Origin: an uncultured Nodularia sp.
GTDB taxonomy: Bacteria > Cyanobacteriota > Cyanobacteriia > Cyanobacteriales > Nostocaceae
Direction of reading: 5' to 3'
DNA: 64,000 nt
Assembly: GCA_903911355.1 (NCBI GenBank)
Contig: CAIWDD010000110.1
Coordinates: 1-64,000 of the forward strand
The number at the start of each line of letters is the position of its first letter. Position 1 is the stretch's first letter. Below are positions 5,771-32,171 of this stretch, piece by piece. A program made the position numbers and the translations under genes. The notes below the pieces were generated by a model, which did no database searches, was not told where the DNA came from, and was given only the letters and a program-made list of their open reading frames with translations.

Positions 5771-6937
5771 TTACCGTAAAGTCAAATCCTCACTACTAAC
5801 ACAGCGTGGATCTGGTAATGTAGCTTTTTCTGGCTCCCTGGGGAACCAAACCGCTGTGCGCTGACAAATTTTAACCAACATCAACATCACTGGAACCTCG
5901 ATTAACACACCTACCACAGTGGCCAATGCAGCACCGGAATTTAAGCCAAACAACATCACAGCTGTAGCAATAGCAACTTCAAAGTGATTACTAGCTCCAA
6001 TTAATGCAGCTGGTGCGGCATCTTCATAAGATATATTCAGTTTTAATGCTGCCACATAACTAATCAAGAAAATGAAATTAGTTTGAATAAATAGGGGTAC
6101 AGCAATTAACAAAATGTGCAAGGGATTCTCAACAATCACTTCACCCTTAAAGGCAAATAGCAAGACTAAAGTAATTAACAAAGCAGTAATAGCAACCGGA
6201 GTGAGATACTTTAAAAACCGCCTTTCAAACCACTGTCTACCTTTGTGTTTAAAAATCCAATAACGGCTGTACATTCCTACCACTAAAGGTAAACCAACAT
6301 AAATGATTACTGATAAAACTATGGTTTGCCAAGGTACTATTAAATCATTGGCTGCTAGTAACCACCTGCCCAAGGGTGCATACAAAAATAGCATTAATAG
6401 TGAATTTACCGCCACCATGACTAAGGTATGTCCCTGGTTACCGTAGGATAGATATCCCCACATCAACACCATGGCGGTACAGGGAGCGATTCCTAATAAA
6501 ATTGTCCCGGCGATGTAGGAATTAACTATTTCTGCTTCCCTCCCACGCAGTAATTCTGTACCTGTAATTAATGGACGAAATAACCAACCCAAGAAAAACT
6601 GCGCAAATACCACCATTGTGAATGGTTTAATTAACCAGTTGACTATTAAGGTGAGAATTACAGGTTTAGGGGCGCGGACTGCATTCACAGCTTGGGTAAA
6701 GTCAATTTTTACCATGATGGGGTACATCATGAAGAATAGACACACTGCAATGGGTAGGGAAACTTGATAAATACTCATTGCATCCAGTGCGATCGCCACC
6801 CCAGGAAATAACCTCCCTAGTGCAATTCCGGCTAAGATGCACAAAAATACCCAAACAGTCAAGTATTTCTCAAAAACACTCAGGTTACCCCCAGCTTTTA
6901 GCGGGGTTGTGTTTGTGTTGGTATTCATTGATATCAC
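5771..6937 (-). CDS. arsB: ACR3-family arsenite efflux permease
   Basis: This 388-aa membrane protein has about ten helices. It carries the ACR3 hallmark [21 protein letters not shown] in the middle, with the conserved Cys thought to handle As(III), and [11 protein letters not shown] near the end. It exports arsenite and is unrelated to the ArsB antiporter despite the shared gene name often used. Start options are 6937 or the Met four codons on (6928). It lies 32 nt downstream of arsI on the same strand, so the two are probably co-transcribed from the operator at 7406-7443. Confidence 0.93.
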
Positions 6938-6969: not shown

Positions 6970-7386
6970 TTAACCACAACAGGAGTGTTTCCAGTTCTCA
7001 CTTGGTGTTGTATCAGCAACTTTCACTACAAAAATTTCCCAACGGTTGCCATCTGGGTCTGTTACCCAAACTTTATCTTGTACAGCATAACAACAGTCTA
7101 TATCTTCTTCAGTAAACAATGCCAGTCCTGCCTCTGTAAACCTTTGGATGGCAGAATGCACTGCTTGTGTACTTTCAACTTGTACCCCTAAATGAGACAA
7201 GGCACCACCAGACTGGATATGATTGGCTAGGTTGAGAGTTAGGTTTAAAGCCGGATGGGAAATATCAAATTTAGCGTAGTCAGCTTTATATTTGACGGGT
7301 TCCACACCAAACATTGCCTGATAAAATTCTACTGACTTTACCAGATTAGTCACGTTCAAAGCCACATGAGTTTTCAATACTGCCAT
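6970..7386 (-). CDS. arsI: ArsI-type C-As lyase (glyoxalase fold)
   Basis: This 138-aa vicinal-oxygen-chelate protein has the features of ArsI, which cleaves the C-As bond of trivalent methyl- and aryl-arsenicals. A vicinal Cys pair (C98-C99, DCCYAVQDKVW) could bind MAs(III). H7, H65 and E117 (RWEIF) are the likely Fe(II) ligands. A second CC pair sits at the C-terminus (HSCCG). ArsI has been characterised in Nostoc. CadI-like annotation is an alternative name for the family, but the pairing with ACR3 and ArsR argues for arsenic. Confidence 0.9.
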   Translation of the reverse strand: MAVLKTHVALNVTNLVKSVEFYQAMFGVEPVKYKADYAKFDISHPALNLTLNLANHIQSGGALSHLGVQVESTQAVHSAIQRFTEAGLALFTEEDIDCCYAVQDKVWVTDPDGNRWEIFVVKVADTTPSENWKHSCCG

Positions 7387-7405
7387 AATTTATCTCCTTA
7401 CAGGA

Positions 7406-7443
7406 TTGATAAACATCTATATATCTATATAGATGTTTATCAA
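7406..7443. promoter_or_regulatory. Perfect 18+2+18 palindrome, ArsR operator
   Basis: The arm TTGATAAACATCTATATA is followed by TC and then its exact reverse complement, giving 36 paired bases out of 38. It sits between the divergent arsI (start 20 bp away) and arsR (start 35 bp away). ArsR/SmtB repressors bind AT-rich inverted repeats at such positions, so this is very likely the shared operator. Binding is inferred. Confidence 0.85.
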
Positions 7444-7477
7444 TATATTGCCATAGCATATCGATAAGTGTCAATAT

Positions 7478-7861
7478 ATGAATATGAACTCGCCTATAGA
7501 CCTGAAAAACTGTTGTAAACCAGTGCTATCCAGCTTCCTTAAGGCTGATGAAGTAGCAGAGATAGCAGCTATTTTCCGAGTATTGGGAGAACCAGCGAGA
7601 CTACAACTTCTCAGTTTCATTGCTAACCGACCACAAGCCGAGGCCTGTGTTTGTGAGTTAATAGAACCTTTGGGACTATCACAACCAACTGTGAGTCATC
7701 ATCTCAAGGTTTTATATGAAGCTGGTTTACTCAAGAAAGAACGACGCGGCACATGGATTTACTATCAATTTGTGCCTGAACGTATTGAATTGTTGCAAAA
7801 AGTCTTAGCACTACCGAGCGTTGATGAACCTAATCTCCACCTTCGGATTTCCAAGCTATAG
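7478..7861 (+). CDS. arsR: ArsR-family arsenic-responsive repressor (1)
   Basis: This 127-aa winged-helix repressor has the recognition helix LSQPTVSHHLKVLYEAGLL and wing KKERRGTWIYY. Candidate As(III) thiols are C57 and C59 (ACVCEL) and an N-terminal pair C12-C13. The CVC spacing lacks the third Cys of the classical ELCVCDLC site, so the N-terminal pair may complete it. It is transcribed divergently from arsI-ACR3 across the palindrome. Its last 32 nt overlap the antisense 3' end of arsJ. ATG 7478 or ATG 7484 could start it. Confidence 0.92.
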   Translation: MNMNSPIDLKNCCKPVLSSFLKADEVAEIAAIFRVLGEPARLQLLSFIANRPQAEACVCELIEPLGLSQPTVSHHLKVLYEAGLLKKERRGTWIYYQFVPERIELLQKVLALPSVDEPNLHLRISKL

Positions 7862-9098
7862 CTTGACTCGGTTGTGGGTCAGGTAACTTCATCGTCACCA
7901 GTCCGGCTGCTAAGACTAATAACATGGATGTCCACAGACAACCTACTAAGTTAAAATATTGAAATACCAACCCTGATAACACTGTACCAGCTAATCGACC
8001 CCCGGAGTTAGCCATATAGTAGAAGCCAACGTTGAGGGCGACTTTATCGTCGTCGGTGAACGCTAACACTAGGTAGGAGTGGACTGCTGAGTTAAAAGCA
8101 AAAACTACACCAAATACAAGCAGTCCCCCAATAATTGCTATGTTACCAGGTACGCCCAATTGTAAAGCCAAGGCGATCGCCGCGGGAACTGCGGTGAGGG
8201 TAAATGTCCAAAACTGGATAGTCTGAGATTTCGGTGGTTGACCAGAACCAAAGCGCTGGATAAGGGTGGGCGCTAAAAACTGAATCACACCATAACCAAT
8301 CACCCAACAAGCCAAGAATCCACCCACTTGATAGAACGACCAGCCTAAATTTCCCCGTAAAAACACTGGTAAACCCACAACAAACCACACATCCCGGGAA
8401 CCAAACAGAAAAAATCTCGCAGCTGAGAGAATATTAATTTCTTTGCTCTTAGAAAACAGTTGGCTAAACTTAACTTTAGCCTTGATTTTACCCATACCCC
8501 TAGGCAACATCAACCCGGTGAACATAATTAAGAACAGTCCCCCAGCCATAATTAACAGGGAAGAGGTAAAGCCAAAAGAAGACAACAGCACACTACCAAC
8601 AAAAAAGCCTACCCCTTTAAGTGCATTCTTGGAACCTGTTAATACCGCCACCCACTTAAATAAAGATGACTGAGCCTCCTGGGGTACCACCAAGCGAATA
8701 GCACTCTTAGAACTCATTTTAGTTAAATCTTTGGCAATCCCGGAAAAGGCCTGGGCTACCATCACATAACCCACCGCCATCCACTGCGCCCAATTGGGAT
8801 TCAGCCATGATAGCATGACTAAAGAAAAAACCTGTAAGCCAATACCCGTATAAAGAGTTACCTTTAAACCCAATTGGGAACCAATCCACCCCCCCAGAAA
8901 GTTGGTAATAACCCCAAAGACTTCATAGAATAGAAATAAAAAGGCGATTTGTAAGGGAGTATAGCCGATACTATTAAAATAGAGTAGTACCAGCATTCGC
9001 AAAGCACCATCAGTAATAGTAAAACCCCAATAGGCTAGGGTAACAAGAATATAATTCTTGAGATTAGCGCCAGAAGCTGTAGAAGATGTCATACACAA
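7830..9098 (-). CDS. arsJ: ArsJ organoarsenical efflux MFS transporter
   Basis: This 422-aa protein has about 12 transmembrane segments of the major facilitator type. N-terminal NYILVTLAYWGFTITDGALR and the run AFSGIAKDLTKMSSKS match ArsJ. ArsJ exports 1-arseno-3-phosphoglycerate, made by a partner GAPDH from arsenate and glyceraldehyde-3-phosphate. The partner gene lies immediately upstream on the same strand, 194 nt away across a dispersed repeat. The 3' end overlaps arsR by 32 nt in convergent orientation. Confidence 0.92.
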   Translation of the reverse strand: MCMTSSTASGANLKNYILVTLAYWGFTITDGALRMLVLLYFNSIGYTPLQIAFLFLFYEVFGVITNFLGGWIGSQLGLKVTLYTGIGLQVFSLVMLSWLNPNWAQWMAVGYVMVAQAFSGIAKDLTKMSSKSAIRLVVPQEAQSSLFKWVAVLTGSKNALKGVGFFVGSVLLSSFGFTSSLLIMAGGLFLIMFTGLMLPRGMGKIKAKVKFSQLFSKSKEINILSAARFFLFGSRDVWFVVGLPVFLRGNLGWSFYQVGGFLACWVIGYGVIQFLAPTLIQRFGSGQPPKSQTIQFWTFTLTAVPAAIALALQLGVPGNIAIIGGLLVFGVVFAFNSAVHSYLVLAFTDDDKVALNVGFYYMANSGGRLAGTVLSGLVFQYFNLVGCLWTSMLLVLAAGLVTMKLPDPQPSQAIAWKSEGGD

Positions 9099-9292: not shown

Positions 9293-10303
9293 CTAATAAC
9301 TCAATGCAACCTTACGCGCCAGTTCAACCATCCGATTCGCGTAACCCCATTCATTGTCATACCAAGCCAGGATTTTGACTTGAGTTTCATCCACCACCAT
9401 TGTAGAAAGAGCATCAATAATAGAAGAACGAGGATCATCTTTGTAATCAATGGATACTAAAGGACGCTCTTCGTAGCCTAAAATACCTTGAAGGGGTTCT
9501 CGTTCTGACGCTGCTTTCAATAAGCTATTAATTTCATCTACTGTGGTAGGTCTTGCAACTTCAAACACACAATCTGTTAACGAAGCATTCAGTAATGGGA
9601 CTCGCACCGCCACACCGTTGAGCTTACCGTTCAGTTCGGGATAAATTAACCCAATGGCTGTTGCTGAACCGGTTGTAGTGGGAATTAGAGATAAACTCGT
9701 AGCCCGCGCCCGGCGTAAATCTTTATGGGGAGCATCAACTATGGTTTGAGTATTAGTATTGTCATGGATGGTAGTAATTACTCCATGTTTAATACCTAAA
9801 CCTTGATGAATTACCTTGACTACTGGAGCTAAACAGTTAGTAGTACAAGAAGCAGCAGTGAGAAGATGATGCTTTTGAGGCTCATAGAGATGGTCATTTA
9901 CCCCCATGACTATATTTAAGGCTTCTTCCTTTACCGGAGCAGCGACAATTACTTTTTGTACTCCCCTTTTAAAATAAGGGTCGAGGGTTTGAGGAGTGCG
10001 AAATTTACCGGAGCATTCCAAGACCAAATCAACACCCAAGTCATCCCAGGGAACTGCGCCTGGTTCAGCATAATCACTGAAGCTTATAGTTTGGTTGTTA
10101 ATTAAAACACTGTCAGAATCCGCTTCTACTTCTAGTGGCCAACGTCCATGGACAGAATCAAACTTTAATAAGTGTGCTGCGGTTACTGCACCGCCTTTAA
10201 TTTCGTTGATATGCACAAAATCTAATTCTGGCCAACCCCATCCAGCCCGTAGAGCCAACCTGCCAATTCTACCAAATCCGTTGATTCCTACACGCACTCT
10301 CAT
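9293..10303 (-). CDS. ArsJ-associated glyceraldehyde-3-phosphate dehydrogenase
   Basis: This is a 336-aa GAPDH with a Rossmann start ([16 protein letters not shown]), catalytic Cys in [12 protein letters not shown], and a C-terminal [16 protein letters not shown]. In ars loci such enzymes use arsenate in place of phosphate and make 1-arseno-3-phosphoglycerate, the substrate of ArsJ. Its place between arsR2 and arsJ on one strand supports this role over central glycolysis. Operator-like TTGATA palindromes lie upstream at 10346-10410. Substrate preference cannot be read from sequence. Confidence 0.92.
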
Positions 10304-10345: not shown

Positions 10346-10410
10346 ATTGATATGTCAATGACTAAGAGGTTAGTGGATACAAAAATTCATCAATAAAACT
10401 TGATATATCA
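10346..10410. promoter_or_regulatory. Operator-like palindromes upstream of gap-arsJ
   Basis: ATTGATATGTCAAT (10346-10359) is a near-perfect palindrome 43 bp before the gap start. TGATATATCA (10401-10410) is a perfect one overlapping the arsR2 stop codon. Both carry the TTGATA half-site seen in the arms of the 7406-7443 operator. They are candidate ArsR sites, by inference. Confidence 0.45.
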
Positions 10411-10737
10411 GGAAAAATTATCGCAAGACTGAGCAGGAGATATTTCTCCTAACCGGCTATATTCTCCTAAATATGCTTCTAAAACAGCGAATTGGCTCAA
10501 ATTCAAACTGTAATAAATCCAGCGTCCTTCTTGACGGGCGTTGACTAAGCCTGCTTCTTTGAGGGTTTTCAGGTGAAAAGATAGTTTTGACTGACTTACC
10601 CCCAAGGTATCACACAAGTCGCATACACACTGTTCCCGCTTTCGCAGCAATTCTACCGCATTAATCCTGATGGGGTCAGAAAGAGCATGAAAACCGGCAA
10701 CAATTAAATGAGAATTGGTAGCACAGGGGGTAGACAT
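10408..10737 (-). CDS. arsR: ArsR-family arsenic-responsive repressor (2)
   Basis: This 109-aa winged-helix regulator has the classical arsenite site with C37, C39 and C42 (QCVCDLC) in the helix before the recognition helix LGVSQSKLSFHLKTLKEAGLV. It differs clearly from ArsR1 in sequence and thiol arrangement. It is 105 nt upstream of gap-arsJ on the same strand and 12 nt downstream of an aminotransferase gene, so it may lack its own promoter or share one inside that gene. It probably controls gap-arsJ. Confidence 0.93.
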   Translation of the reverse strand: MSTPCATNSHLIVAGFHALSDPIRINAVELLRKREQCVCDLCDTLGVSQSKLSFHLKTLKEAGLVNARQEGRWIYYSLNLSQFAVLEAYLGEYSRLGEISPAQSCDNFS

Positions 10738-17729: not shown

Positions 17730-17749
17730 TTTTTATAGTAAGTGTATCT

Positions 17750-17773
17750 AAAGGCGTGAAATTTCACGCCTTT
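17750..17773. terminator. Perfect palindromic hairpin after tRNA-Val
   Basis: The arm AAAGGCGTGAAA is followed directly by its exact reverse complement (24 bp). It lies between tRNA-Val and the convergent response-regulator gene and could terminate both transcripts. No long T run follows. Confidence 0.6.
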
Positions 17774-17872
17774 ACTATCTTAGATCGGAATGCGATCGCC
17801 TAGGAAGTAACCCTCAACAGGTAAAATTCTCTCTTGAGAGAAAAAACGCCGCCAAAACGCCAGCCAAAATAA

Positions 17873-31829: not shown

Positions 31830-32171
31830 TTAATTACAAAAGACTGATACTTTACTACTGTGATGTCTGTATCTACCATTCCTGGTGACTTGTCTGCTTT
31901 CTTGGGTAAGAATACTACCTGATTTTTGACAGGTGTTTCTGAATAAAGTGTTGACATCGTTAATATGAAAATTTCCATTCATATAGATTTCAGTCTCAGG
32001 AGCATGGAGCTTTGCACTTCCCGGGAAATCTGGAAATATTTCCAGATTTCCCCGTAAATCTTGACGAATTCTCATTCTCCCTATGTGCATATCTATTTCA
32101 CCTATTTGAGTAACAACAGGGAGAAATAAGCTGACAGAAATTAGCAGTGAGGAAAATTTGTAAATCTGCAT
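31830..32171 (-). CDS. Secreted small protein, second of a three-gene cluster
   Basis: This 113-aa protein is unknown. The hydrophobic N-terminus (FSSLLISVSLFLPVVTQIG) is likely an uncut or late-cut signal. The mature part is basic, with two Cys (NTCQKSG and the C-terminal VFCN) that could form one disulfide. It lies 159 nt after the first cluster gene and 25 nt before the third. Confidence 0.55.
   Translation of the reverse strand: MQIYKFSSLLISVSLFLPVVTQIGEIDMHIGRMRIRQDLRGNLEIFPDFPGSAKLHAPETEIYMNGNFHINDVNTLFRNTCQKSGSILTQESRQVTRNGRYRHHSSKVSVFCN

Follow-up and report, generated by a model that had tools for sequence, protein, structure and literature searches.

A perfect palindrome between divergent cyanobacterial arsI and arsR genes probably comprises two sites of a three-site ArsR operator array

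Background

The closest described systems are the operators of the SmtB/ArsR repressors, for which the available part of one report gives a 12-2-12 consensus, TAxAxTCAAATA-xx-TATTTGAxTxTA (PMC6555750). Operators of this type, including those of SmtB, ZiaR, AztR and AzuR in cyanobacteria, are palindromic and overlap promoter elements, and some operons carry two such sites, as far as the accessible sections of two papers describe them (PMC8790569, PMC6555750). At the Pseudomonas putida promoters Pars1 and Pars2, ArsR footprints exceed 50 bp and cover the -10 element and the start site; these sites follow an SmtB/ArsR-type consensus, and no overlapping pair is described in the portion of the article that was available (PMC7994332). 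Among cyanobacteria, arsI of Nostoc is reported in the accessible text to be a member of an ars operon and to be induced by As(III) and MAs(III) (PMC5258700), and ars genes are accompanied by genes for a putative glyoxalase, a GAPDH and an MFS transporter, according to the available part of PMC4284471.

A second body of work concerns mutation at imperfect inverted repeats. In bacteria, template switching is an established process at quasi-palindromes (PMC7202029, as available in part) and has been proposed for RNA stems (PMC8794818, likewise in part); in both partial accounts, imperfect inverted repeats become perfect or more perfect. Inversion of the spacer of a repeat also counts among the traces of template switching, according to the available part of PMC8604942. 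The process is thus known from reporter genes and RNA stems, and we propose it here for an overlapping pair of operators.

The locus examined here lies in a 64-kb stretch of cyanobacterial DNA, which we call the window. As an ArsR operator region it is ordinary in kind, and its anatomy is unusual. Like the 12-2-12 operators, its predicted sites are palindromic and overlap promoter elements. Unlike them, the conserved array in related loci consists of 20-bp units of 8-4-8 form (ATATTGATnnnnATCAATAT), two of which overlap by 4 bp (16-bp offset) while a third follows 30-31 bp further on. We name these sites A (on the arsI side), M and B (on the arsR side). No title or abstract describing an 8-4-8 pair was found in the literature searched, which left most subscription journals outside, and the A-M-B array does not appear in the available parts of PMC8790569, PMC6555750, PMC5658604, PMC7994332, PMC7965956, PMC4010505, PMC4284471, PMC5258700 or PMC6514093.

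Methods

Related loci were collected at three taxonomic levels. At the family level 217 genomes were searched, of which 34 had a match; at the order level 388 were searched, with 24 matching; and a second query at the class level gave 75 matches in 388 genomes, four places being left out. The order and class searches were sampled evenly from larger groups. A further 80 loci were kept from at least 436 relatives in the genome_contigs collection. One other genome of the window's own genus was searched and gave no ArsR1 match. In total, 161 cyanobacterial arsR loci were analyzed, comprising 102 distinct loci with the A/M pair, 38 duplicates that were dropped, and 21 loci without the pair; the last group includes the window, some mutual duplicates and nine loci without any site. 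Set aside were 40 loci from Actinobacteria, Chloroflexi or unassigned sources and eight loci fetched for other reasons, and four re-fetched stretches were unused.

Sites were scored with a position weight matrix (PWM) built only from the A and M sites of 50 relatives, the window being excluded. Promoter elements were counted in the 51 loci whose three sites stand at the usual offsets. The independence of the arms was assessed by permutation, in which the A site of one locus was paired with the M site of another and compared with its own M. Structure-pair covariation was scored in 19 of the 23 Pseudanabaena-like loci; the four omitted repeat the 36-mers of others. In the earlier counts, locus L019 stood among the 16-bp loci, on account of a weak site made by its repeat, and was scored as lacking B.

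Results and discussion

The palindrome occupies positions 7405-7444 of the window. Its two 19-bp arms (7405-7423 and 7426-7444) are 100% complementary and flank a TC centre at 7424-7425, so that 38 of the 40 bp are symmetric. A sequence-only reading of this DNA had claimed 36 of 38 bp with 18-bp arms; the repeat is real and slightly longer, and it does lie between divergent genes, arsI (6970-7386, minus strand) and arsR1 (7478-7861, plus strand). The runner-up among perfect inverted repeats in the 64-kb window has 15-bp arms (loops of up to 10), and the longest arms in six first-order Markov sequences as long as the window were 11 bp. The palindrome is therefore far outside chance expectation. 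Its pattern, with 8 of 38 positions free and up to three mismatches, occurs at a single place in its own 3.97-Mb genome, both strands having been searched. No exact copy of the 38-mer was found in genome_contigs, a collection that may omit the window's own genome, and plasmid records gave eight partial matches, none of which reached 80% query coverage. Hairpin artefacts can generate perfect palindromes, which is the one point in favor of an assembly artefact. This explanation is very improbable here, however, as the genes on the two flanks are not the same and relatives with the same spacing can be aligned gap-free to the segment that runs from M to B.

The genes on both sides are arsenic-resistance genes. 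The product of arsI scores as an ArsI/CadI family equivalog (NF041414, 178.1 bits against a cut-off of 116), and the arsenite efflux gene acr3 lies downstream of it (5771-6937, minus strand; TIGR00832). ArsR1 is an ArsR/SmtB repressor whose winged-helix domain exceeds the curated cut-offs (PF01022, 62 versus 22 bits; NF033788, 92.8 versus 55), and it falls below the equivalog cut-off of the Rv2640c-type ArsR (NF041413, 81.8 versus 155 bits). The alignment suggests that translation starts at the in-frame ATG at 7484, which is conserved in relatives; the first ATG of the frame, at 7478, abuts site B and is absent from the aligned relatives. In the gene model, arsR1 is followed on the minus strand by arsJ (7830-9098) and the gene for an ArsJ-associated GAPDH (9293-10303), with a tail-to-tail overlap of 32 bp between arsR1 and arsJ (7830-7861). 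A second ArsR-type gene (10408-10737, minus strand) is the neighbor of arsJ and the GAPDH gene. The array motif is missing around it (locus L002), so this second regulator probably reads other sites.

Across 17 aligned homologues the recognition segment of ArsR1 is conserved, Cys12, Cys13 and Cys59 are invariant, and Cys57 is nearly so. The protein thus combines, within window positions 7511-7654, an N-terminal Cys-Cys pair (12, 13) with a Cys-x-Cys pair (57, 59). The nearest solved relative by sequence is PDB 6j0e (E 8e-17), which we take to be CgArsR, the arsenic-responsive ArsR of Corynebacterium glutamicum. Its N-terminal Cys-Cys pair aligns with that of ArsR1, but the cysteine of its Gly-Gly-Cys aligns with Gln53 of ArsR1, which has Cys57 and Cys59 instead. 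The third ligand position differs between the two proteins.

The gaps between arsI and arsR in relatives contain repeated 20-bp elements, and these supply the frame in which the palindrome is best understood. In 60 distinct regions, 48 site pairs at a 16-bp offset were found, as compared with none in 20 rounds of shuffling. Sixty-six of 76 distinct cyanobacterial upstream regions place A and M 16 bp apart, and all 66 share ATAT between the two sites, although this count is partly built into the site score. The distance from M to B in these 66 regions is 31 bp in 37, 30 bp in 14 and 47 bp in one, and 14 were scored as lacking B. In the enlarged set, 102 distinct loci carry the A/M pair with the 16-bp offset and the common ATAT. 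Site B was scored as present in 42 of 43 loci with a divergent arsI versus 10 of 23 others (Fisher P 6e-7 for these scores). The locus that stood out was L019, in which a B site is in fact present 31 bp after a shifted M, and this brings the count to 43 of 43.

In the window, the three best PWM scores fall on the three expected sites, which are given without strand. Site M (ATATAGATGTTTATCAATAT, 7427-7446) scores 24.4, the best value, and agrees with 15 of 16 consensus positions. Site B (ATATCGATAAGTGTCAATAT, 7458-7477), 31 bp after M, is second with 23.2 and 14 of 16 positions. Site A (GGATTGATAAACATCTATAT, 7403-7422) is third with 11.8; it is weak, having lost its outer AT, and its inner half is ATCTATAT. 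The next-best score in the window is 7.2. The sites from which the PWM was built have a minimum of 11.6, a 5th percentile of 14.0 and a median of 21.8, which puts A near the bottom of their range. The window thus has all three sites, the 31-bp distance from M to B, TTGACA in B and TATATT at the end of M; it departs from the usual array in its A/M offset, which is 24 bp instead of 16 bp. Its closest relative found, L113, has an ordinary array and 80% ArsR identity, and none of the loci compared is a closer carrier. We consider it likely from these comparisons that the palindrome represents the left-hand two of three sites in an ArsR1 operator array, A and M being neighbors. The identification of this DNA as an ArsR operator in the sequence-only reading is very probably right, and the suggestion made there that it may bind two dimers fits, since the palindrome is predicted to be composed of two of the three array sites.

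The same reading regarded the palindrome as an unusually long example of the 12-2-12 SmtB/ArsR site, which the comparison does not bear out. At the centre of the palindrome, 12 of 20 positions agree with the published consensus, a value equalled or exceeded at 183 of 63,975 places in the window; the best score is 13 within 7380-7480 and 14 in the whole window, and the unit that is conserved has the 8-4-8 form. A related proposal is that ArsR1 reads the whole 40-bp palindrome, centred at 7424/7425, as one long symmetric operator, perhaps as a dimer of dimers that depends on the symmetry. The symmetry over 38 of 40 bp would suit such an operator, as would the near-perfect cases that recur in L057, L136 and L187. 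Against it, the 24-bp offset is confined to the window and L019 while other loci with the pair have 16 bp, and complementary pairs number at most 13 of 16 in 92 of 102 loci even though the recognition segment of the repressor is conserved (17 homologues). Moreover, 182 other places in the window match the 12-2-12 consensus at least as well as the dyad does, and B stands alone with its own 8-4-8 dyad. We regard a single long operator as quite unlikely.

Both promoters are predicted to lie to the right of the palindrome. The putative arsR1 -10 element is TATATT (7444-7449, plus strand), for which TATnnT occurs in 49 of 51 relatives and the last T in 50 of 51. The putative arsI -35 element, TTGACA (7469-7474, minus strand), lies within site B and is exact in 50 of 51. 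The site score itself favors TTGA and TAT to some extent in these counts, and it has no bearing on the C and A that complete TTGACA or on the T that closes TATnnT. For the arsI -10 element we propose CAATAT (7445-7450, minus strand), a weak match to consensus with TGG just upstream (7451-7453). This hexamer is variable in the 51 relatives (CAATAT in 13, CATAAT in 7, CAAAAT in 7, others in the rest; TGn in 30) and is the weakest point of the promoter map. No -35 element was found for arsR1, and a generic sigma-70 promoter scan of the intergenic region was negative. Transcription would start near 7438 for arsI (minus strand) and near 7455-7457 for arsR1 (plus strand), so that the palindrome would occupy the arsI leader and start region and would lie upstream of the arsR1 -10 element. 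A symmetric bidirectional promoter within the palindrome, with TTGATA in one arm and TATAGA in the other, was considered and rejected on the grounds that the conserved promoter-like elements lie to the right. For the same reason the palindrome probably does not serve both directions equally, as the sequence-only reading had suggested it might, and on this map it would not mark the axis of symmetry between the two promoters.

The array, its spacing, the promoter-like elements and the covariation of the arms described below come from comparison between loci; binding by ArsR1 and the start sites are deduced from them. If each 20-bp site is the docking place of one ArsR1 dimer, M would span the arsI start region and extend into the arsR1 -10 element, B would span the arsI -35 element and the arsR1 start, and A would lie within the arsI leader. 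As long as arsenite is absent, both promoters would be closed by ArsR1 dimers that occupy M and B and, less strongly, A. Binding of As(III) by the conserved Cys12, Cys13 and Cys57/Cys59 would, by analogy with the family, lift this block. Repression by such an array would not need exact mirror symmetry.

The sequence-only reading had recommended comparing the arms across cyanobacteria for conservation. The sites proved to be conserved and the perfect mirror symmetry did not, and to judge by the loci compared, symmetry is not generally required. Since A and M are palindromic, lie 16 bp apart and share ATAT, every such pair is inherently a quasi-palindrome, and the permutation test asks for agreement beyond this. 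Its P values are rough, on account of the relatedness of loci, thresholds picked after looking and clades picked by hand; with that reservation, matched complementarity was borderline in 50 loci (P 0.05 and 0.12), and in 66 loci the two values were 0.02 and 0.08. In 102 loci, pairs with at least 14 of 16 complementary positions occur in 10 versus 2.1 expected, pairs with at least 15 of 16 in three versus 0.3, and pairs with all four spacer letters complementary in five versus 0.9 (permutation P <0.005 for each). Shuffling within three hand-made groups left 10 versus 3.1 for the first class and five versus 0.9 for the spacers, and the mean complementarity became borderline (P 0.046).

The signal is located in 23 Pseudanabaena-like and 32 Nostocaceae loci. 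In the other 47, neither mean complementarity nor the number of near-perfect pairs exceeds expectation, and full spacer complementarity occurs in two of them versus 0.5 expected (P 0.08). In the two clades, agreement in the inverted register is 7.78 versus 7.21 of 12 positions, a value reached by none of 4000 shuffles, whereas the direct register has no excess (6.60 versus 6.67). Drift of repressor specificity was considered as the cause of this covariation, and the absence of a direct-register excess is evidence against it. Over all 102 loci the inverted register is borderline (6.87 versus 6.69 of 12, P 0.04), and of the A/B and M/B pairs only A/B has a weak excess, again inverted (P 0.03).

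These figures bear on the simplest account, in which the symmetry is a chance match of two independent operators. Operators from different loci already average about 10 of 16 complementary pairs, and close sister pairs overall lack an excess of paired spacer changes, both of which are compatible with chance. Yet complementarity at all 18 of positions 3-20, as in the window, is found in only one of 2450 different-locus pairs, and near-perfect pairs are in excess across loci, with the two clades showing that excess in the inverted register only. Chance agreement is accordingly an unlikely source of the symmetry.

Individual lineages illustrate the covariation. L187 is a perfect 36-bp palindrome, and its sister L057 is nearly perfect with nearly the same flanks; the two differ by paired changes in the non-consensus spacers that keep pairing (AGAC/GTCT versus GGAT/ATCC). 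The sisters L142, L141 and L136, of one genus of the family, have 12, 14 and 15 of 16 complementary pairs. Between L141 and L136 there are 5 substitutions in 36 positions of A/M and none in 74 just downstream; they include a T-A to A-T swap that departs from the consensus. On the arsI side the flank has changed too. Random substitutions would yield such end states with P 7e-4 and 3e-4, in a case chosen after the fact. Among 180 close sister pairs, which are not independent, 22 of 225 double-changed spacer positions keep pairing versus 18 in shuffles (P 0.2); when only the 19 closest pairs are taken, three of 11 such positions do so versus 0.8 (P 0.03).

Covariation of this kind might also reflect selection on a structure, with the symmetry kept as a 5' hairpin of the arsI mRNA, or as a DNA cruciform, that tunes arsI stability or translation. 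The predicted arsI leader through the start codon (7384-7438, minus strand, from the putative start site) opens with an 11-bp hairpin made by the palindrome and folds at -14.4 kcal/mol (z -3.5), and the covariation of the arms in two clades would agree with a stem. The structure-pair covariation score is 0.220 versus 0.150 in 19 Pseudanabaena-like loci (0 of 500 shuffles) and 0.118 versus 0.086 in 32 Nostocaceae (1 of 500), one slid control in the latter coming close at 0.104. On the other side, the corresponding 59-nt region of L113 folds no better than shuffles (z -0.9), covariation is absent in 47 of 102 loci, and the paired change at 5/32 between L141 and L136 would fall outside the predicted transcript, given the putative start. 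No Rfam family matches at gathering score. A match to an Rfam microRNA family on both strands was far below that score and was taken as chance similarity to a perfect hairpin. A conserved hairpin is, on balance, an improbable reason for the symmetry.

The anatomy of the window itself adds a second feature. Its A and M sites are exact mirror images that stand 24 bp apart versus the usual 16, and an 8-bp tandem duplication of ATCTATAT (7415-7422 and 7423-7430, plus strand) occupies their junction (7415-7430). When one copy is removed, a 32-bp perfect palindrome remains and A and M return to a 16-bp offset. Perfect 8+8 tandem duplications occur at six places in the window, so such an event is not rare. 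The 24-bp offset is found only in the window and L019, other loci with the pair having 16 bp. In L019, A and an altered M lie 24 bp apart, B follows 31 bp further on, and the A/M junction again holds an 8-bp tandem repeat. The sister locus L015, from the same genus, has an ordinary 16-bp pair without the 8-bp gain. The right half of M in L019 is in the opposite sense, TATTGATAT versus TATCAATAT in L015. The gain equals one half-site in length and would rotate one dimer about the DNA axis by roughly three quarters of a helical turn.

We tentatively propose that the exact symmetry arose by a template-switch step. Two overlapping palindromic operators form a quasi-palindrome that is open to arm copying, and template switching would copy the arms onto each other; a central 8-bp tandem duplication would have shifted A from 16 to 24 bp off M. 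The imperfect inverted repeat in relatives and the homogenized arms in some lineages are what template switching leads one to expect. The action of template switching on operators is our own suggestion, as are the mutational mechanism and the order of events. No close relative shows a state before the symmetry or before the duplication, so the window's own history is inferred. The lack of a clear excess in the 180 close pairs indicates that the process, if real, is episodic. Put generally, and more tentatively still, overlapping operators may copy themselves, so that the two sites evolve in a concerted way and from time to time return to near-perfect symmetry, including spacers that are probably not read by the repressor and changes away from the consensus, with the junction also gaining 8 bp independently in the window and in L019. 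This idea of how overlapping operators become perfect palindromes is moderately supported and can be tested.

A long perfect operator need not imply a special protein and may be a by-product of mutation at overlapping sites. If the template-switch reading is true, operator pairs possess a built-in route to concerted evolution. The array also provides a testable map of predicted arsenic-repressor positions in many cyanobacteria, with three 20-bp sites at near-fixed offsets and two promoters.

In the window's own genome, 86 places match the site motif with up to three mismatches versus 75 for the reversed pattern; only M has a single mismatch, and B is among the nine places listed with one or two. 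With counts close to those of the reversed pattern and few near matches, no regulon beyond the locus is indicated. The motif is absent from the loci of the other three ArsR-like genes found in the genome, where the best scores are 2.6, 0.05 and 1.0.

Sites of the same type occur outside cyanobacteria. In 40 Actinobacterial and other non-cyanobacterial loci (L065, L069-L075 and L077-L108), a degenerate motif found 72 sites versus 0.2 in shuffled sequence. Their spacings are mixed, 35-37 bp being commonest (15 pairs) and 16 bp occurring in four of the 40 loci.

Other perfect inverted repeats were also observed in the window. A loopless 30-bp palindrome, GGGAAATCTGGAAATATTTCCAGATTTCCC, at 32023-32052 falls inside a 113-aa open reading frame on the minus strand (31830-32171), and two more repeats with 13-bp arms lie at 17749-17774 and 1933-1960.
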